DNA of 64,000 nucleotides, from the NCBI GenBank assembly GCA_001898385.1, contig MKTT01000094.1:1-64000 (forward strand). Reading direction: 5' to 3'. The notes under the pieces were generated by a model. The model did not search any database and was not told where the DNA came from. It was given only the letters and a program-made list of their open reading frames with translations. Source of the DNA: Planctomycetales bacterium 71-10 (GTDB taxonomy: Bacteria; Planctomycetota; Planctomycetia; Isosphaerales; Isosphaeraceae). Of the stretch, positions 9,021 through 25,697 are shown in pieces. The first letter of the stretch is position 1. The number at the start of each line of letters is the position of its first letter. A program made the position numbers and the translations under genes.

Positions 9021-9836
9021 ATGGCCACCATGATCGCTGACACCGCCCATATCGACCCCCGCGCCGAGATCGCGGACGACGTCGAGATCGGCCCTTACTG
9101 CGTGATCGGCCCCGAGGCCCGGATCGGCCGCGGCACCCGGCTGATCGCCCACGTCTGCATCCTGGGGCGCACCACCCTCGGCGAGAACAACGTCGTCCAC
9201 CCCAATTCGGTCCTCGGCGGCGAGCCCCAGGACTACACCTACAAGGGCGAGCCGACCCGGCTGGAGATCGGCGACGACAACACCTTCCGCGAGGGGGTCA
9301 CCGTCCACCGCGGCACCACCAAGGAAGACGGGATCACCCGGATCGGCTCGCACAACTACTTCATGGCCAACGTCCACGTCGGCCACGACTGCCTGCTGGG
9401 CGACCGCATCCTGATCGCCAACAACACGATGCTGGCCGGGCATATCCACATGGATTCCTACGCCACGGTCTCCGCCGGCGTCGGCCTCCACCAGTTCGTC
9501 CGCGTCGGCAACTACAGCTACGTCGGCGCCCTGACCCGCGTCTACCACGACGTCCCCCCGTTCATGCTCGTCGAGGGGAACCCCTCCAAGGTGCGCTGCA
9601 TCAACATCGTGGGGCTCAAGCGGCACGGCATCGCCGCCGACGCCATCACGGCCCTGCACGAGGCCCATCGCCTGATCTACCGCGCCCGCATGGCCGCCAA
9701 GCAGGCCCAGGAAGTCCTGGAAGCCCACGGCCAGGTCTGCCCGGAGGTCCGGCGGCTCCTCGACTTCATCGACTACCAGCAGCAGGGCCGCCACGGCCGC
9801 GGTCGCGACCGCGCCCGGCTCTCGGCCTCGGCCTGA
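9021..9836 (+). CDS. lpxA: Acyl-ACP:UDP-N-acetylglucosamine O-acyltransferase
   Basis: LpxA transfers a 3-hydroxyacyl chain from ACP to the 3-position of UDP-GlcNAc, the first step of lipid A synthesis. The protein (271 aa) shows the hexapeptide-repeat left-handed beta-helix (IDPRAEIADDVEIGPYCVIGPEARIG...), the catalytic His in HVGHDC (second His, residue 122), GLHQFVRVG and NIVGLKRHG, then a helical C-terminus. The start could be 9021 or the second Met at 9030. The gene is 74 bases after lpxC-fabZ and 54 before the Gfo/Idh gene. The last 20 residues are an Arg-rich tail not typical of the family. Confidence 0.95.
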   Translation: MATMIADTAHIDPRAEIADDVEIGPYCVIGPEARIGRGTRLIAHVCILGRTTLGENNVVHPNSVLGGEPQDYTYKGEPTRLEIGDDNTFREGVTVHRGTTKEDGITRIGSHNYFMANVHVGHDCLLGDRILIANNTMLAGHIHMDSYATVSAGVGLHQFVRVGNYSYVGALTRVYHDVPPFMLVEGNPSKVRCINIVGLKRHGIAADAITALHEAHRLIYRARMAAKQAQEVLEAHGQVCPEVRRLLDFIDYQQQGRHGRGRDRARLSASA

Positions 9837-9890
9837 CCGCCGACGCCGGCCCGCCCGAAGGATCGCCTTGAGACACGGAGAGTCCGACCG

Positions 9891-11000
9891 ATGAAACCGC
9901 TGCGCGTCGCCGTCGTCGGCGTCGGCCACCTGGGCCGCCACCACGCCCGGATCCTGGGCTCCTTGCCGGGCGTCGAGCTGGTCGCCGTGGCCGATTCCCG
10001 CCCCGAGCAGGCCCGCGCCATCGCCGAGGGCCTGGGGACGCGGGCCGTCGCCGACTATCGCGAGCTGATCGGCCGGGTGGACGCCGTCTCGATCGCCGTC
10101 CCGACCGTCCTCCACCGCGAGGTCGCCGGGGCGTTCCTGGAGGCGGGGATCCCGGCGATGGTCGAGAAGCCGCTCGCCGGCACGGTCGCCGAGGCGGAGG
10201 AGCTGGTCGACCTGGCCCGCTCGACCGGGGCGACGCTCCAGGTCGGCCACGTCGAGCGGTTCAACCCGGCGCTGGACGCCCTCCGCGAGTCTCCCCTGCG
10301 GCCCAAGTTCCTCAGCGGCGAGCGGATGGCCGTCTACACCTTCCGCTCGACCGACGTCGGCGTGGTCTTCGACCTGATGATCCACGACATCGACCTGGTC
10401 CTCAGCCTGGTCGACTCGCCGGTGAAGTCGGTCTCGGCCGTGGGCGTGGCCCTCTTCGGCGACCACGAGGACGTGGCCGACGCCCGCATCGAGTTCGAGA
10501 ACGGCGCCGTCGCCAACCTGTCCGCCAGCCGCGCCAGCTACGCGACCTCGCGGAAGATGCGGGTCTGGGGGGCCGAGGGATACGCCTCGCTCGACTTCGG
10601 GGCCCGCCGGGCGACCGTCGTCCGCCCGTCCGACGAGTTCCTCGCCGGCGGCGTCGACCTGGAAGGGGTCGACCTGACGAAGCCCGCCGCGATCAAGGAC
10701 CACCTGTTCGGCAAGGTGCTGCGGGTCGACCAGGTCGAGCCCCCGGCGTGCGACCAGCTCACGATGGAGCTGCAAGACTTCGTCGCGGCCGTCCGCGACG
10801 GCTCCCGCCCCCGGGTCACCGGCGAGGCCGGCCTGGAGGCCGTCCGCGTGGCCGACCGGATCGTCCGCAGCCTGGACGCCCACCGCTGGGAGGCCGACGC
10901 CCCCGTCCCTTCGGCCCCGGCCCAGCCGGCCTCGATCCTCCGCGGCCCCCACGCCTGGCGAAAGGCCCCCGCCGAGCGCCGGCCGTCCGCCCTCGGCTGA
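9891..11000 (+). CDS. Gfo/Idh/MocA-family NAD(P)-dependent oxidoreductase in the lpx cluster
   Basis: A 369-residue dehydrogenase with the Rossmann motif VVGVGHLGRHHARIL at the N-terminus, the family Glu-Lys-Pro (VEKPLA) near residue 94 that holds the catalytic Lys, and the C-terminal alpha/beta substrate domain with GHVERFNPAL. The substrate is presumably a nucleotide sugar. A Gfo/Idh enzyme directly after lpxA is a recurrent arrangement. In Acidithiobacillus the cognate enzyme GnnA oxidises UDP-GlcNAc at C3 and a transaminase GnnB then makes UDP-GlcNAc3N for LpxA. No aminotransferase gene lies beside this copy, so a GnnA role is only a hypothesis. The C-terminal 35 residues are Pro/Ala-rich and variable. 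Confidence 0.85.
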   Translation: MKPLRVAVVGVGHLGRHHARILGSLPGVELVAVADSRPEQARAIAEGLGTRAVADYRELIGRVDAVSIAVPTVLHREVAGAFLEAGIPAMVEKPLAGTVAEAEELVDLARSTGATLQVGHVERFNPALDALRESPLRPKFLSGERMAVYTFRSTDVGVVFDLMIHDIDLVLSLVDSPVKSVSAVGVALFGDHEDVADARIEFENGAVANLSASRASYATSRKMRVWGAEGYASLDFGARRATVVRPSDEFLAGGVDLEGVDLTKPAAIKDHLFGKVLRVDQVEPPACDQLTMELQDFVAAVRDGSRPRVTGEAGLEAVRVADRIVRSLDAHRWEADAPVPSAPAQPASILRGPHAWRKAPAERRPSALG

Positions 11001-11176
11001 CCGCCCCGCGGCGGCGCTTGCCAGGTGCCGAGGGTATCGATTACACTATCTCCGTCGAGGCCTGCGCCCGGAGTCCGGCCGTCTCGTCCGGCCGACCCGC
11101 GCGGGATGTGCTGCGACCGCCCCCGCGGCGGTCCTTTCCTTTTTCTTCTACCGCGAAGCGACGCAGGATCCGTTCG

Positions 11177-11467
11177 ATGGCCAAAGACGCCAAGAAGTCC
11201 AAGGACGCCGCCGAGGCCGCCCCGGCCGCCGAGAAGGCCCCCGAGGCCCCCCGCCAGCCGGCCGACCCGCGCCTCAAGTACGTCAAGAAGTTCCACGGCC
11301 GCTTCCTGCCCCGCGGCCCCCTCCGCGACCGCCACACCGCCCTCTTCGCCCGCTGGAACAGCGGCGAGGACCACGGCGGCGTCACCGTCGAGGAGCTGAA
11401 GTCCCTCTTCGAGGACTGGAAGGTCTCCCGCGAGAAGGGCCCCAAGAAGAAGGCCGCCACCGCCTGA
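11177..11467 (+). CDS. Small conserved basic hypothetical protein
   Basis: This 96-residue protein has a Lys/Ala-rich N-terminal tail (about 35 residues, histone H1-like composition) followed by a compact charged core, YVKKFHGRFLPRGPLRDRHTA and FARWNSGEDHGGVTVEELKSLFEDW, and a Lys-rich end. There is no signal peptide or membrane segment. The ATG at 11177 is the only sensible start; the upstream 180 bases contain a mid-length noncoding leader. I recognise no family. The well-formed terminator hairpin just after the stop supports it as an independent gene. Confidence 0.6.
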   Translation: MAKDAKKSKDAAEAAPAAEKAPEAPRQPADPRLKYVKKFHGRFLPRGPLRDRHTALFARWNSGEDHGGVTVEELKSLFEDWKVSREKGPKKKAATA

Positions 11468-11479
11468 GCGAACGAGATC

Positions 11480-11522
11480 ACGCCCGGCCTCCGCCCCTCG
11501 TTCGAGGCGGCGAGCCGGGCGT
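11480..11522 (+). terminator. Probable terminator hairpin after the small basic gene
   Basis: The stem ACGCCCGGC (11480-11488) pairs with GCCGGGCGT (11514-11522), and the interior CCTCG/CGAGG pairs around TT. The hairpin begins 13 bases after the stop at 11467. The following TCTC is only weakly T-rich, so the release step may rely on stem strength. Confidence 0.5.
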
Positions 11523-11570
11523 TCTCATGCGCCGGGGTGCCGAGCGATCGGAAAGCCGACACCGATCAAT

Positions 11571-11979
11571 GTCCCCTCTCCCGCCGGGAGAGGGCGGCCG
11601 CGCAGCGACGGGTGAGGGTCGCCGGAATTCGGGGGGCATAGCGGACTCGCCTGGACCGAAACAAGCCGTGGCCACCCCTCGGTTTTCCTGACCGTCGCGG
11701 ATTTTGGGGCGGCCATCGTAACGGCCTTCCCCCCCTCGCGGGGGAAGGTGGCCCGAAGGGCCGGATGAGGGGGACGACGAGCGCGGGGGCCGCCGGGATC
11801 CCAAGCCGGTCGGGCGGGCCTTCGAAGCCCGATGGAGCCCGTGCTCCGCGTCCCCCTCATCTGACGCCTTCGGCGTCTGTCTTCCCCCGCGAGGAAGGCG
11901 TCGATCGCAGCGGCCGTCCCGAGATCCGACGACCCTCACCCGGCCCTTCGGGCCGCCCTCTCCCGGCGGGAGAGGGGAC
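11571..11979. repeat. Nested palindromic repeat cluster (type B arms around a type A core)
   Basis: The gap between 11467 and 12015 holds no gene. Type B arms are in opposite orientation: 11571-11632 (GTCCCCTCTCCCGCCGGGAG then AGGGCGGCCGCGCAGCGACG) and 11926-11979 (CCGACGACCCTCACCCGGCC then CTTCGGGCCGCCCTCTCCCG...). Between them, about 11721-11906, is a copy of the element found with terminal repeats at 13.7 and 61.7 kb: left half CTTCCCCCCTCGCGGGGGAAG-like hairpin plus GGCCCGAAGGGCC, right half the inverse. The copy here lacks the recognisable CCTTTGGA-type termini. Short ORFs over this region only read through the palindromes. Confidence 0.85.
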
Positions 11980-12014
11980 CTCGAAGCGCGACGGGCTCAT
12001 CGGGTCGCCGCCTC

Positions 12015-13295
12015 TCAGGCGTAGACCCGCATCTCCTTCTCGCGGACCTGGGCCCCGTGCTCCAGCAGGAAGTTGAGGCAGCGGCGGGGGAGGCGGCACT
12101 GGATGACGACGCGGTCGTTCTCATCGTCGTAGGCGCGGTCGTGGACCTGGGCGTGCTGGGCCAGGTAGGCCAGGACGCGGCCGTCGGCGACGCTCGTCTC
12201 GACCTCGACGTCCATCGCCGATTCCAGCAGGGCCAGGCGGACGGCGTGCTCCAGGGCGTCCAGCCCCTCCCGCTTCGCGGCGCTGATGCAGACCGAGTCG
12301 CGATGGTGGGCGCGGAGGACGTCCAGATACGAGCGGTCGGGGACCTTGTCGGCCTTGTTCAGGACGAGCAGGGTCGGGTGGTCCTTCAGGCCGAGTTCCT
12401 CCAGGACCTCGACCACCGCCTGCACCTGCATCTCGGCGTCCGGGCTGGAGGCGTCGACGACGTGCAGCAGCAGGTCGGCCTGGCGGGCCTCTTCGAGCGT
12501 CGCCTTGAACGAGGCGACGAGCGAGTGCGGCAGGTCGCGGATGAACCCGACCGTGTCCGACAGCAGCGCCGCGCCGCCGCCTCGGAACCGCCACTTGCGG
12601 GTCCGGGTGTCGAGCGTGGCGAACAGCTTGTCCTCGACCAGCACCCCGGCGTCGGTCAGGGCGTTCATGAGGGTGCTCTTGCCGGCGTTGGTGTAGCCGA
12701 CGAGCGAGACCGTGGGGAAGTCCCCGCGGCCGGCGACCTCGCGCTCCTTCCTCGACTGGATCTTGCCGAGCTTCGCCTTCAGCTCCTGGATGCGGTGGAC
12801 GACCAGCCGCTTGTCCTCTTCGAGCTGCTTCTCGCCCGGGCCGCGGACGCCGATGCCCCCCTTGTAGCGCGACAGGTGGGTCCACATCCGCTTCAGCCGC
12901 GGCATGGCGTATTCGAGCTGCGCCAGCTCCACCTGGAGGTGGGCCTCGTGGCTGCTGGCGTGGACGGCGAAGATGTCGAGGATGACCTCGGTGCGGTCGA
13001 CGACCTTGACGCCCAGTTCCTTCTCCAGGTTCCGGGTCTGGCCGGGGCCCAGGTCGGAGTCGAAGACGACGACGTCGGCCTCGAACGCCTCGACCAGCCC
13101 CTTCAGCTCCTCGACCTTGCCCGAGCCGATATACGTCGCGACGTCCACCTGCTGACGCTTCTGGAGCATCGTCCCGACCGTCTCCAGGCCGGCCGTCTTG
13201 GCCAGGCCGCGGATCTCGTCCAGGGGGTCGTCGGTGTTGTACACGGCCCCCGGCAGGATGACCCCGACCAGGATCGCGCGCTCCCGATTCCCCAT
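12015..13295 (-). CDS. hflX: GTPase HflX
   Basis: HflX is a ribosome-associated GTPase that splits stalled or heat-damaged 70S ribosomes. The sequence shows the N-terminal HflX domain with GSGKVEEL near residue 57, the hallmark GPGEKQLE (152-159) preceded by RYKGGIGVR, then the G domain: P-loop GYTNAGKST (200-208), switch DTVGFIRDLPHSLVASFKAT, NKAD. The C-terminus is a short domain ending CLNFLLEHGAQV. I start at the ATG at 13295 (426 aa), where MGNRERAILVGV matches the family; a GTG at 13367 would add 24 nonconserved residues. Shine-Dalgarno signals are weak at both. Confidence 0.93.
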   Translation of the reverse strand: MGNRERAILVGVILPGAVYNTDDPLDEIRGLAKTAGLETVGTMLQKRQQVDVATYIGSGKVEELKGLVEAFEADVVVFDSDLGPGQTRNLEKELGVKVVDRTEVILDIFAVHASSHEAHLQVELAQLEYAMPRLKRMWTHLSRYKGGIGVRGPGEKQLEEDKRLVVHRIQELKAKLGKIQSRKEREVAGRGDFPTVSLVGYTNAGKSTLMNALTDAGVLVEDKLFATLDTRTRKWRFRGGGAALLSDTVGFIRDLPHSLVASFKATLEEARQADLLLHVVDASSPDAEMQVQAVVEVLEELGLKDHPTLLVLNKADKVPDRSYLDVLRAHHRDSVCISAAKREGLDALEHAVRLALLESAMDVEVETSVADGRVLAYLAQHAQVHDRAYDDENDRVVIQCRLPRRCLNFLLEHGAQVREKEMRVYA

Positions 13296-13729
13296 ACGCT
13301 CGTTTCGGCTCGTGTCGATCAAGTGGGCTGGTTCCTCGCTTCTGGCAGGATGGATCGCGGAGGGCACGCGCCCGGGCGCGGCCGGATTCTAATGAGGCCG
13401 TCGACGGGCGTCAACGACGCCCGCCTCGCTCCCCAATCCTTACTATACGTCTAGACGCCATCCGCCGCCCCGGGGTTCGCCCCCGACGCGCCGATTCCCC
13501 GGTCGACGGTCGACGCCTCGCCCGAACGGCGTCGCGTCGCGTCCTCCGCCCCCCGTGGCTCCGTTCGTCGGCCGACGACCACCCGTCATTCGACACAACC
13601 CCATTATCTACAAGCAACTTACAGACAGAACCCTGCGGGTCCGTTCGTCGATTTCGAATCAAGAATCGACACTCCTCGCGGGACACCGCCGGGATCGACG
13701 TAAGTCTTTGGAAGTGATAGTGGCCGGGC

Positions 13730-13992
13730 GTGCCTTTGGAGTTCGGCGGATCGCGTCGGAGGTTGAGGGGGCGTCATGACGGCCTTCCCCCCTCGCGGGG
13801 GAAGGTGGCCCGAAGGGCCGGATGAGGGGGAGGACGAGCGCGGAGGCCGTCGGATCTCGCATCGGGCCCGGACGGGCGGGCCTTCGAATCCCGACGGCGC
13901 CGGTGCTTCGCGTCCCCCTCATCCGACCGCTTCGCGGTCTGTCTTCCCCCGCGAGGGGGGAAGACGCTGATCGACAAATTCCAAAGGCTCAC
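13730..13992. mobile_element. MITE-like element with terminal inverted repeats, copy 1
   Basis: The intergenic region 13296-14258 has no convincing gene. Inside it is an element with terminal inverted repeats GCCTTTGGAGTTCG (13732-13745) and CAAATTCCAAAGGC (13975-13988). The body has a left half with a C5/G5 hairpin (CTTCCCCCCTCGCGGGGGAA) and GGCCCGAAGGGCC, a variable core of about 90 bases, and an inverse right half with GACCGCTTCGCGGTC and CTTCCCCCGCGAGGGGGGAA. It is alignable over its whole length with 61669-61937. No transposase is encoded, so it would be non-autonomous. No clear target-site duplication is visible. Confidence 0.8.
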
Positions 13993-14258
13993 CCCAGTGG
14001 CCCGGCCGGGCCACCGCCCTCGATCGATCCCGGTGGAGTCGAGTGCGGAGGCTCAAGGATTTCGGCGCTCGCCGCGGGTTGCGTCCCGATCTCGACGCTC
14101 CGGCGTCGACGCTCGGGCCGATGGCGGCGTCCGACCTCGAGTGACGACCGGATTGTCAAAGATCCGAGGGCGCGTGCCCCTCCATCTCGGTATGGTCGCC
14201 GGGCGGGTCGTTCGGATTTCACGATTCCAATTTTCGCGCCCGGACGGGGCCGTCGAGG

Positions 14259-22411: not shown

Positions 22412-23047
22412 TCAGCGCATCGCGGCCTCGTCGGCCGCGGCCTTGGCGGCGACGGCCTGGGCCTCGCGGTACGGCAGGACGTTCTGGGCGTAGTACTGGA
22501 CCATGGTGCGGTAGTCGGGCCCGTGGTTGACCTTCACCAGGCCGAACCCCTTGGAGACTTCCTCGCTCGCCTGGTCCAGGGTCCAGCCGCAGTACTTCGT
22601 CCGGTAGGCGATCTGGGCCATGGAGACCCGGTTCAGGCCGTGGTGGCAGTGGAAGAAGATCGGGTAGTTCGCCGGGTCGTTCAGGACGGCGGCGGCCTCG
22701 TCGAGGATCTCGAAGATCGTCTTGGGGACCGCCTCGTTGCGCTGGTCGATGATCGGCTTGTGGATCCAGGTGATCCCCAGCTCCTTCGCCAGGGCCCGCT
22801 CCTTGACGGCGATGGCGCTGTCGTAGGGGTGCGCCAGGGCCATGATCGTCTTGATGTTGCAGTCGCGGGCGATGCGCCGCATCGGCCACTCTTTCTGCCA
22901 GGCCCCCCGGTAGATCTTGCCGGGGACGACCTCCGCGAACTGCTCCGCGAAGACGTAGTCGTGGCCGTGACGCCAGAGCTGGTGGCAGGCGAGGCCGGTG
23001 AGGCCCACGCCCAGGGTGGCGCGCAGCCATTTGCGACGATTGGTCAT
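22412..23047 (-). CDS. Membrane-anchored tyrosine/dual-specificity phosphatase-like protein
   Basis: The protein (211 aa) has an Arg-rich start and one hydrophobic segment (TNRRKWLRATLGVGLTGLAC) that may be a Tat-like or uncleaved anchor. The catalytic loop HCHHGLNRVS, with Cys134 and Arg140, fits the HCx5R signature of cysteine phosphatases. Residues 40-60 (VVPGKIYRGAWQKEWPMRRI) match the N-terminal strand of dual-specificity phosphatase-like bacterial proteins (YRSGQ motif). Substrate unknown; a phosphoprotein, phosphoinositide or nucleotide is possible. The start ATG at 23047 makes the anchor the N-terminus; an upstream frame extension is low complexity. The intergenic stretch 23048-23361 (314 bases) shows no gene. 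Confidence 0.75.
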   Translation of the reverse strand: MTNRRKWLRATLGVGLTGLACHQLWRHGHDYVFAEQFAEVVPGKIYRGAWQKEWPMRRIARDCNIKTIMALAHPYDSAIAVKERALAKELGITWIHKPIIDQRNEAVPKTIFEILDEAAAVLNDPANYPIFFHCHHGLNRVSMAQIAYRTKYCGWTLDQASEEVSKGFGLVKVNHGPDYRTMVQYYAQNVLPYREAQAVAAKAAADEAAMR

Positions 23048-23361
23048 CGGGCGATTGCTCCCTGTCGGCCGGCCGGCGGCATCCCGTCCGCCTCGGCGTA
23101 CTCCCCTTCCCTGGGGCGGCTCGCCCGCACCCCGGAGGGGGGCGCGGGCGGCGAATCCTAGCAAGGGTCGACCCGCCCGACAAGGCGGAGGTCGGCCTCC
23201 CTTTCGGCATCGGCCGGGCCGGGCGGCGAGTTGAGGAAAAGCGACGCGCCGGGGTGCCGGCCGGATTTCGACGTCGTCAAATCCGGCCCCCTTGGTATTC
23301 TCCGAGACGCCCCCTAGGATGGATCGACGTCGGCGAAGGATGGCCGGAGGGACGTTCGGCG

Positions 23362-24831
23362 ATGATGGAACAGGCGATTCGGAAGGCCGTCCGGTTCGAC
23401 GCCCCCTCGGCCGCGACGATGGCGGAGCAGACCTTGCTGGCCCGACCCGACCGACATCTCGGCCCCGCCTCCAAGGTCGTCGGCCTCTATCAATCGGTGA
23501 TGCGGCGCACGCTCGAACACTTCTTCCCGGACTCCGTGCTGGAGATCCAGGGGGACCGCAGCATCATCGACTGGGACGTCGTGATGCAGGAGGCCCCCTA
23601 CCGCCTCACCGACGACCCCGACCGCCTGGCCATCGAGATCGAATGGCGGGGCACCCGGCTGACCTTCCAGCCCGGCAGCCCCGTCCCCCTCTTCCCGGCC
23701 GAGCGGCGGATGATCGACGTCATCGTCGCCGCGCTGGACCATCGCTTCCGCGCCCTGTTCGACCAGGACATCGCCGACCGCTTCGAACGCTTCAACTACC
23801 TGACCGAAGACCTCATCATCGCCGACTTCCTGGATTCCGTGGAGTCCTTCCGGATCCCGGCCGCCCTGGAGGCGCTGCGGGTCGCCGCGCTCTCCACCTA
23901 TGAGAACAAGCGAGTGACCACCGGCGCCCTGCTGCTGGGGACGCCGCACGACCCGACCACCCCCGGCCGCGAGAACCTCCAGGGCGCCCCCCAGTTCAAC
24001 GCCCGCCTCACCGCCATCAAGGGCTTCCACCGCCTCTGCGACGGCGTCCGCACCGTCTTCGTCGTCGACCCGCAGGGCGAGCTGGTCCGGATCGCCGACG
24101 TCGCCGAGTGGGCCGAGCGCACCCAGATGCGGCGCTGCCAGGCCCACCTCTGCCCCCGCCCCTACCAGGCCCACGCCCGCGCCACGATCTCCGGCGGCCA
24201 CGTCTGCCTGGTGCTGACCCCGTCGCAGGAGATCAAGGTCTTCGCGCAGGGGGAGCTGGCCTTCAGCTTCAGCGACGGCCGCTGGCGGCTGCTGGACGTC
24301 CCCACCAAGTTCGCCGTCTGGCGCGAGGCCGTCGAGCGCGACGGCGACGGCGACCTGGCCCGCCGCCTGTTCCAGGCGGCGCTGAACCTCAGCGAGGCCC
24401 GCGTCGGCGCGCTGCTGGTCGTCGCCCGCGACCCCGAGAAGTCGGTCCCCCAGCTCATCGCCCCGGTCGACCGCATGGCCGAGGAGGTCGCCGTCGACGA
24501 CCCCCAGGATCCCGAGAACCTCTCGCCCCGCCTGGCCAAGCGGGCCCTCCACCACGCCGTCCGCGGCATGGCCGTCGACGAGCTGGAGCCGACCGTCCTG
24601 GAGGCCATCGCCAGCCTCGACGGCGCCGTCGTCGCCGCCCCCGACGGCCGCCTGCTCACCTTCGGCGCCATCCTCCGCATCAACCCCGAGGTCCTGGACC
24701 TCGGCCGGTCCGTCCAGGGCGCCCGCACCCTGGCCGCGCTGGCCGCCTCGCAATTCGGCCCCGTCCTGAAGGTCAGCGAGGACGGCTACGTCACCATGTT
24801 CCTCAAGGGCCGCCGCGTCTGGGAGTTCTGA
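23362..24831 (+). CDS. Protein with divergent DisA/DAC-like nucleotide-cyclase domain
   Basis: This 489-residue soluble protein ends in a domain that aligns with diadenylate cyclases: VGALLVVARD (strand iGALIViER), then about 80 residues later SLDGAVVAAPDGRLLTFGAIL carrying the catalytic-type D420-G-A, then GARTLAALAAS and a final LKVSEDGYVTMFLKGR (VSEEtG-x-I). In true DAC enzymes the second motif is G-T-R-H-R; here it is G453-A-R-T-L, so the RHR triad is broken. Residues 1 to about 330 form an unrecognised probable sensor region of the kind reported in front of such divergent DAC domains. GGAGGG precedes the ATG pair at 23362/23365. It may make or bind a cyclic dinucleotide, or be inactive. 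It is convergent with the DUF4058 gene. Confidence 0.65.
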   Translation: MMEQAIRKAVRFDAPSAATMAEQTLLARPDRHLGPASKVVGLYQSVMRRTLEHFFPDSVLEIQGDRSIIDWDVVMQEAPYRLTDDPDRLAIEIEWRGTRLTFQPGSPVPLFPAERRMIDVIVAALDHRFRALFDQDIADRFERFNYLTEDLIIADFLDSVESFRIPAALEALRVAALSTYENKRVTTGALLLGTPHDPTTPGRENLQGAPQFNARLTAIKGFHRLCDGVRTVFVVDPQGELVRIADVAEWAERTQMRRCQAHLCPRPYQAHARATISGGHVCLVLTPSQEIKVFAQGELAFSFSDGRWRLLDVPTKFAVWREAVERDGDGDLARRLFQAALNLSEARVGALLVVARDPEKSVPQLIAPVDRMAEEVAVDDPQDPENLSPRLAKRALHHAVRGMAVDELEPTVLEAIASLDGAVVAAPDGRLLTFGAILRINPEVLDLGRSVQGARTLAALAASQFGPVLKVSEDGYVTMFLKGRRVWEF

Positions 24832-24839
24832 CCCGCGCC

Positions 24840-25604
24840 TCACGACGGCCGCGGCAGGAACTCCCGCGCCCACGCCTCGTCCTCGGGCGACAGCGGCGGG
24901 TCGGGCGGCCCCTCATAGATGCGGAACTGGTAGGCCGCGTCGTCGTAAGCTTCGTCCAGGGCGGCCTTCAGGTCCAGCCTCGCGTCCGCGTCCGGCTCGC
25001 GCAAGGGCACGGGGATGACGGGCAGCGGGTCGCGCAGGCCGATCGGCCAGAAATCGACCTCGGGCCCGCGTTCCGTCCGGCCGACCAGCACCGAATAGGC
25101 GCAAGGGGGGCGGCCCAACACCGGCATCGGCGGCTCCCCTCGGAGGAGGTCGATCTCCACGAGGTTGACGCCGCCGGCCCGGATCGCCGCCCGCTTGTTG
25201 AGGTAGCTCGTCCGGTTGTCGCCCCGGCGCTTGTTCGTCGGGCTCAGCAATTCCAGGACGGTAATCAGCTCCTCGCTCCGGCCGTCCACGATCTCAAGGT
25301 AGGGGAGCCGTTCGACGTCCTCGTCGGGGAGCCGGAGCCGGACCGGGGCGGCGATCTCGACGGCCGTGGGACGGACGCTCGTCTCGTCTCCCCGATAGGT
25401 CACGCCCAGGTCGGGCCGGAAACGCCCCCGGGCCTCCACCCCTTCCTCGTGGATGTAGACGTTCTCATCGATCTTGACGGCGTACCGCGGCGAGACCTGT
25501 CGGACGAGTTGGCGGCGCAGCAGCGGTAGGTACGCCGAATGGAAGTCGTGCCAAACGTCGGGGCGTTCCAGCCACGGGTTCATTCCGGGGAACGGCGAGG
25601 GCAT
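24840..25604 (-). CDS. DUF4058 family protein
   Basis: A 254-residue protein whose start, MPSPFPGMNPWLERPDVWHD, is diagnostic of DUF4058. The rest (FRPDLGVTYRG, ELLSPTNKRRG, LVEIDLLRGE) fits the conserved core, which has a PD-(D/E)xK-like strand pattern with D and E-x-x-S-P-x-N-K. The biochemical role is unknown. The ATG at 25604 matches the family start exactly, so the 22 residues upstream in frame are excluded. Members are often present in many copies in cyanobacterial and planctomycete genomes, suggesting spread by transfer. The gene converges with the DAC-like gene 9 bases away. Confidence 0.9.
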   Translation of the reverse strand: MPSPFPGMNPWLERPDVWHDFHSAYLPLLRRQLVRQVSPRYAVKIDENVYIHEEGVEARGRFRPDLGVTYRGDETSVRPTAVEIAAPVRLRLPDEDVERLPYLEIVDGRSEELITVLELLSPTNKRRGDNRTSYLNKRAAIRAGGVNLVEIDLLRGEPPMPVLGRPPCAYSVLVGRTERGPEVDFWPIGLRDPLPVIPVPLREPDADARLDLKAALDEAYDDAAYQFRIYEGPPDPPLSPEDEAWAREFLPRPS

Positions 25605-25697
25605 GGCGAAACTCCCGAAGGGCCCGGCGACGATCGACGGCCGGCGTCGCGTCGTGTTCGAGGATAGCACGGCGACGGCCCGGTCGTCTGCCTCGGC

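Follow-up and report, generated by a model that had tools for sequence, protein, structure and literature searches.

Catalysis by diadenylate cyclases (DACs) is reported to require two DAC domains placed head-to-head (PMC8573169). In Leptospira CdaA, the D172A and R203A substitutions are described as abolishing activity and S222A as roughly halving it (PMC12974146), and in Mycobacterium tuberculosis DacA the change of RHR to AAA is described as abolishing ATP binding as well as activity (PMC3328451). A DAC can also be tied to anti-phage defence, as in DS-2 (DefensePredictor; NF053872), which is a CBASS with a phospholipase, a cGAS and a DAC, the DAC being reported as needed for defence (PMC13092281). 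DS-2 is the closest tested precedent for some of the proteins described below.

The window analyzed here, the 64,000 nucleotides at positions 1 to 64,000 of contig MKTT01000094.1 from Planctomycetales bacterium 71-10, encodes a relative of these enzymes that is predicted, from profile comparisons and structural models, to consist of an N-terminal part, a cryptic degenerate DAC-fold domain or pseudo-DAC (D1), and a DAC domain that lacks the His of the GTRHR motif (D2). Like the members of the DAC family PF02457 (DisA, CdaA, CdaS, CdaM/DacM and DacZ), it would have the DAC fold and it has the DGA motif, the Gly-x-Arg element and the Ser of the S-E-E stretch; it differs from them in that the GTRHR His is replaced (mostly by Thr), in an invariant Lys before V-S and Asp-Gly instead of E-T-G, and in the second, degenerate DAC domain that is apparently fused in front. 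In contrast to DisA, in which an N-terminal DAC domain is followed by a linker and an HhH domain, its DAC domain is C-terminal and Pfam recognizes no other domain. CdaA has N-terminal transmembrane helices, whereas the highest hydropathy over 19 residues in this protein is 1.34, and it matches neither DacZ_N nor DacZ_P, unlike a DacZ-type protein of the same genome (L003), which does. The DACs to which Pfam assigns a 'probable sensor' domain (DACNV, DACNH, DacZ_P and others) likewise have an extra N-terminal domain before a C-terminal DAC, but the protein in the window matches none of their N-terminal models and its own extra domain is predicted to be DAC-fold. A phrase search of open papers, which did not extend to the standard survey of DAC architectures (Galperin 2023, J Bacteriol), found no description of a pseudo-DAC fused in tandem to a His-less DAC.

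The gene lies at 23362-24831 on the forward strand, where the frame is open throughout from an ATG start and encodes 489 amino acids plus the stop codon; a G-rich stretch, GGAGGG, stands immediately 5' of the ATG. A reverse-strand frame of 519 amino acids across the same region (23314-24873) was set aside as a GC-rich shadow ORF. A promoter and terminator scan found none of either. The earlier note had quoted VGALLVVARD, SLDGAVV, LKVSEDG and GARTL from the translation, all of which are found in the 489-residue protein, and its numbering of D420-G-A and G453-A-R-T was right. Beyond the DAC domain, Pfam recognizes no domain in the protein and no output domain; there was no PADLOC match, no match to PDB sequences by phmmer up to an E-value of 10, and in NCBIfam a sole sub-threshold row for NF053872 (E 0.15).

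D2 comprises residues 328-489 (24343-24828, forward strand). The Pfam DAC model matches residues 339-483 with an E-value of 3.1e-6 and 27.2 bits, just over the gathering score of 27, and its score falls below the cut-off in some orthologues (15.2 bits in one, L013). When profiles were compared with hhalign, the D2 family matched the DAC profile with a probability of 98.9 and an E-value of 1.6e-17, and in a tree of D2 domains and 37 other DACs the D2 family is set apart from the others by a branch supported at 99/97, the details being unsure owing to several long branches. The C-terminal region is therefore DAC-like, as had been proposed from the letters alone, and by these comparisons D2 is a divergent DAC domain homologous to DACs. 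The profile scores, together with the conservation described next, rule out a chance resemblance.

To define this conservation, 56 members from three bacterial phyla were aligned, comprising 46 from Isosphaeraceae (32 orthologues, including the protein in the window, and 14 of a paralogue type) and 10 others; these are the fetched loci after removal of identical C-termini, and are thus fewer than all family matches. The DGA motif (residues 420-422, 24619-24627, forward strand) is conserved in 56/56. Two of the members end before the GART stretch, hence the denominator of 54 for the positions that follow. GART (residues 453-456, 24718-24729, forward strand) is the equivalent of GTRH, and its Gly and Arg are present in 54/54, its Thr456 in 50/54, and a His at the motif position in none. 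In the equivalent of the (V)VSEETG strand, KVSEDG (residues 470-475, 24769-24786, forward strand), the Lys, Ser, Asp and Gly are found in 54/54. The residues present in 54/54 over this part of the alignment are G453, R455, A458, G466, K470, S472, D474 and G475. Residues D420, R455 and S472 align by motif with D172, R203 and S222 of Leptospira CdaA.

It had been said that the RHR motif of the C-terminal domain is broken. The absence of the His holds across the family, and D2 departs from the GTRHR or GXRHRXA motif in just this way, the Gly and Arg being kept and the His absent in all 54; 'broken' overstates the case, as the DGA Asp, the first Arg and the SEE(T) Ser are family-wide and the His alone is consistently lost. 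In planctomycete DacZ-type proteins the motif reads GTRHW, GTRHE or GARHW (also GARHWAA), so ordinary proteins of this type can likewise carry A for T and lack the second Arg. With that second Arg of RHR variable even among DacZ-type proteins, what has changed family-wide is His to mainly Thr, plus the new invariant Lys. The altered motif is thus a family-defining feature and not a product of decay. A second planctomycete family of DAC-like proteins without the His was also observed, in which GAR(Y/F)NSA replaces GTRHR (L101, L103, L104, L107, L108, L117 and L118).

The residues upstream of D2 had been taken as some 330 residues of unrecognized, probable sensor. This description stands for about residues 1-156, which hold no recognized domain, and gives way for residues 157-327 (D1; 23830-24342, forward strand), which probably form a second DAC-fold domain. 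A cross-phylum profile of the family over residues 160-327 matched a 37-sequence DAC profile in hhalign at 84.4% (E 7e-6, score 40.7), collinear across nearly the whole domain at a loose alignment threshold, and six reversed-profile controls scored 11.4-15.4. The N-terminal part (about residues 1-159, 23362-23838, forward strand) had no similarity to the DAC profile in the same comparison (0.2%, score 12.0). The match of D1 was obtained with the cross-phylum profile only, an earlier one built from few close sequences having given 0.4%, and a direct profile comparison of D1 with D2 was non-significant (2.4%). AlphaFold2, given seven D1 sequences of which none is a known DAC, returned for D1 alone a best model of five with a pLDDT of 58 and a pTM of 0.58, the other four having pLDDT values of 40-45. 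With this model as the query, the best 50 PDB rows in Foldseek were all DACs (DisA, CdaA, DacM and CdaM), the best row having an E-value of 3.9e-4 and a probability of 1.00, with TM-scores of 0.37-0.52 when normalized by the query. In VIA, rows 1-40 were likewise all DACs at Z-scores of 7.1-8.9, of which those under 8 can reflect a common arrangement; the best was 9y4s_F (4.2 A over 132 residues) and the next row after the DACs, an unrelated fold, fell to a Z of 2.4. It is this gap to the next fold that makes the case for D1 persuasive, and D1 is predicted to take a DAC-like fold at moderate model confidence. The full-length AlphaFold2 model had a pLDDT of 38.5, and a fold search with it gave no meaningful match and no DAC above row 23.

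D1 has invariants of its own, namely Glu181 of a TYEN motif (residues 179-182, 23896-23907, forward strand), present in all 55 members that cover the site, and the Trp of Arg307-Trp308 at the end of the domain (24280-24285, forward strand), present in 56/56. Opposite GTRH in the profile alignment stands P265-R-P-Y, so D1 would be without the ATP-binding Arg and His. As D1 is probably a second DAC-fold domain beside D2, the protein can be described as a tandem DAC. Among side observations, the DACNV domain, a 'probable sensor' in Pfam, matched D1 weakly but in register at 20.6% (E 0.0011; reversed control 0.3%) when the N-terminal parts of such proteins (L087, L139-L158) were compared, a suggestive result only, by which the N-terminal domain of DACNV proteins may be a cryptic DAC too.

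Both domains have been kept by selection, as judged by dN/dS values against five of six orthologues, which range from 0.22 to 0.46 in D1 and from 0.13 to 0.38 in D2 (the sixth comparison was saturated). Most substitutions in the two domains are synonymous. A marginal Pfam score and a lost His are what one would expect of a decaying, non-functional DAC duplicate; this purifying selection, the columns that are invariant across phyla and the presence of the gene in 40/45 genomes of the family make such decay extremely improbable, and the conservation found refutes the reading of the gene as a pseudogene.

Known DACs act only as head-to-head pairs, so pairing of D1 with D2 inside one chain would be the most likely arrangement, and we assign a probability of roughly one in two to the reading that, by analogy, they form an internal pseudo-heterodimer with one nucleotide site. 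D1 and D2 would pair in cis, like the two halves of mammalian adenylyl cyclase. The C1 and C2 domains of the mammalian transmembrane adenylyl cyclases are a fused pseudo-heterodimer with one degenerate half; the likeness to the tandem DAC is one of proposed principle only, fold and chemistry being unrelated. D2 would hold the single ATP-type site, whose residues Asp420, Arg455 and Ser472 are invariant across the family members covering them. D1, which is predicted to have neither the ATP-binding Arg nor the His, would be the structural partner that closes the D2 site, and may also offer a regulatory or second-substrate site. At the D2 site, the output would probably be either the sensing of a nucleotide or a regulated reaction that yields a dinucleotide (or transfers adenylate). 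Against this reading stand the low pLDDT of the full-length model, the non-significant direct match of D1 to D2, and the effect reported for the RHR to AAA change in M. tuberculosis DacA.

The absence of the His from all 54 members is also what would be expected of a receptor without catalysis, in which D2 binds a nucleotide (ATP, c-di-AMP made by the two DacZ-type enzymes, or another) and signals through D1 and the N-terminus. In view of the effect reported for the RHR to AAA change in M. tuberculosis DacA (PMC3328451), loss of the His in D2 may abolish catalysis, and the genome also encodes two canonical DACs with the GTRH motif. A pure receptor would have no need of the catalytic Asp, yet Asp420, Arg455 and Ser472 are invariant and Lys470 and Asp474-Gly475 are newly so, and Pfam recognizes no output domain through which a signal might pass; we regard a receptor as possible, and hold it only tentatively. 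It is somewhat more doubtful that the protein is an ordinary c-di-AMP synthase, in which the D2 domains of two chains pair head-to-head, D1 is a scaffold, and Thr or Lys470 takes the place of the His. D2 does retain the Asp and the Arg, each of which is reported as essential by single substitution in Leptospira CdaA (PMC12974146), but a mere scaffolding role would hardly account for the DAC-fold partner that nearly all members carry in cis, and the loss of the His is universal.

The tandem DAC is a core gene of the Isosphaeraceae, with a match in 40/45 genomes; four of the five without one belong to one genus and the fifth is a fragmented assembly. The protein had been called unusual outside the DisA or CdaA setting, which does not agree with this near-universal presence. 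All six of the named loci that were fetched encode full-length or near-full-length relatives of 57-87% identity, the closest being that of Paludisphaera soli (87%). The genome of the window also encodes a paralogue of 46% identity on contig 137, a third and distant tandem relative on contig 37 (L134:15783-16976, reverse strand; 34.6 bits, E 5.5e-10 by phmmer), the two ordinary GTRH DACs, which are DacZ-type, and one DACNV protein. The GC3 of the relative on contig 37 is below that of its neighbours, so it was possibly acquired; a plasmid search with this paralogue as the query found none. A DHHA1 search did not discriminate phosphodiesterases.

Across the phylum, a single-sequence search matched 3/294 genomes, the window's own included, and a profile search matched 34/246, most of the weak rows being other DACs on inspection and six genomes scoring above 100 bits. 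Outside the phylum, plasmids of Agrobacterium vitis, Paracoccus albus and Vescimonas fastidiosa carry relatives, of which that of Paracoccus is cut short close to insertion sequences. Another relative is encoded on a gut contig deposited as 'Bacteriophage sp.' (L126, MT837587); judged by eye, this record resembles bacterial gut DNA, as it encodes a large secreted protein whose repeats are S-layer-like. Searches of viral contigs yielded no relatives with tandem DAC queries and none with canonical DAC queries.

The gene neighbourhood bears on the proposal that the protein belongs to a conflict system. A divergently transcribed gene for a Y_phosphatase2 or DSP-type phosphatase (22412-23164, reverse strand) is conserved in 6/6 loci, the next genes being, in 5/6 of the named loci, those for a GNAT protein and a PMT_2 glycosyltransferase. 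In the window, a DUF4058 gene lies directly downstream of the tandem DAC gene and convergent with it (24840-25670, reverse strand). The conserved Y_phosphatase2, GNAT and PMT_2 neighbours mark a stable chromosomal setting and not a defence island. SMODS (CBASS) cyclases, sought with the PF18144 model only, occur in 2/45 Isosphaeraceae genomes and are absent from that of the window. With its syntenic, housekeeping-type neighbours and no SMODS cyclase, a conflict-island gene in this genome is not supported.

Some distant relatives present another picture. On the A. vitis plasmid, the gene for a relative of 426 amino acids (L125:8362-9642, forward strand) is convergent with an operon (9760-14162, reverse strand) encoding a patatin, a DncV-like cyclase, ThiF and Mov34, a layout that we take to be that of a type II CBASS. 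In one planctomycete (G131), the relative (L129:8940-10352, reverse strand) is the last gene after those for PglX, Fic, PglZ and BrxL on the same strand, and is the tail of a BREX operon. A further relative, at a contig end (G052), has a Fic gene nearby. Those of Vescimonas and of three planctomycete genomes (G137, G194 and G024) have no recognized defence gene nearby, the latter three adjoining permease-like and sulfatase-like genes (named by eye). The link to defence is therefore real in two distant cases and absent in others, so that the proposal of a conflict system is borne out by some of the distant relatives but not by the conserved neighbourhood of the gene in the window.

In the A. 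vitis case, as in DS-2, the DAC is tied to CBASS. The protein in the window is not a DS-2 member, scoring 10.4 bits against the NF053872 cut-off of 630 (9.1 and 8.8 bits in its own genome); the similarity to that model is weak and confined to the surroundings of DGA (E 0.013-0.15), and its genome has no CBASS cyclase by PF18144. The CBASS and BREX neighbours of the two distant relatives, and the reported need for the DAC in DS-2 defence (PMC13092281), would be explained if the protein were an accessory of an anti-phage system, either CBASS or BREX, much as the DAC is in DS-2. We consider this improbable in the face of SMODS cyclases in two of the 45 Isosphaeraceae genomes against tandem DACs in 40, housekeeping-type and syntenic neighbours in the window, the position of the A. 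vitis gene outside the CBASS operon, and the absence of defence genes beside the relatives in G137, G194 and G024. Under the pseudo-heterodimer reading, the tandem DAC of the Isosphaeraceae would act as a constitutive signalling protein next to the two ordinary cyclases of the DacZ type, and a link of this design to CBASS or BREX would be confined to certain distant lineages.

A broader and unlikely extension of the pseudo-heterodimer reading is that these proteins are a cross-phylum class of single-chain pseudo-heterodimers, in which a disguised D1 and a catalytic, His-less D2 make a product other than c-di-AMP that would serve core signalling in some bacteria and anti-phage signalling in others, and that the N-terminal 'probable sensor' domains of other DACs (for example DACNV) are cryptic pseudo-DACs as well, with pairing in cis as a general means of control. 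The c-di-AMP biology of planctomycetes appears to be little studied. If the pairing of D1 with D2 is correct, the tandem DAC would be a natural heterodimer with both halves fused and one nucleotide site, in which the contributions of partner, regulation and choice of product could be separated. In this way, planctomycetes would gain a distinct signalling enzyme, one related by descent to proteins that stand beside CBASS and BREX.
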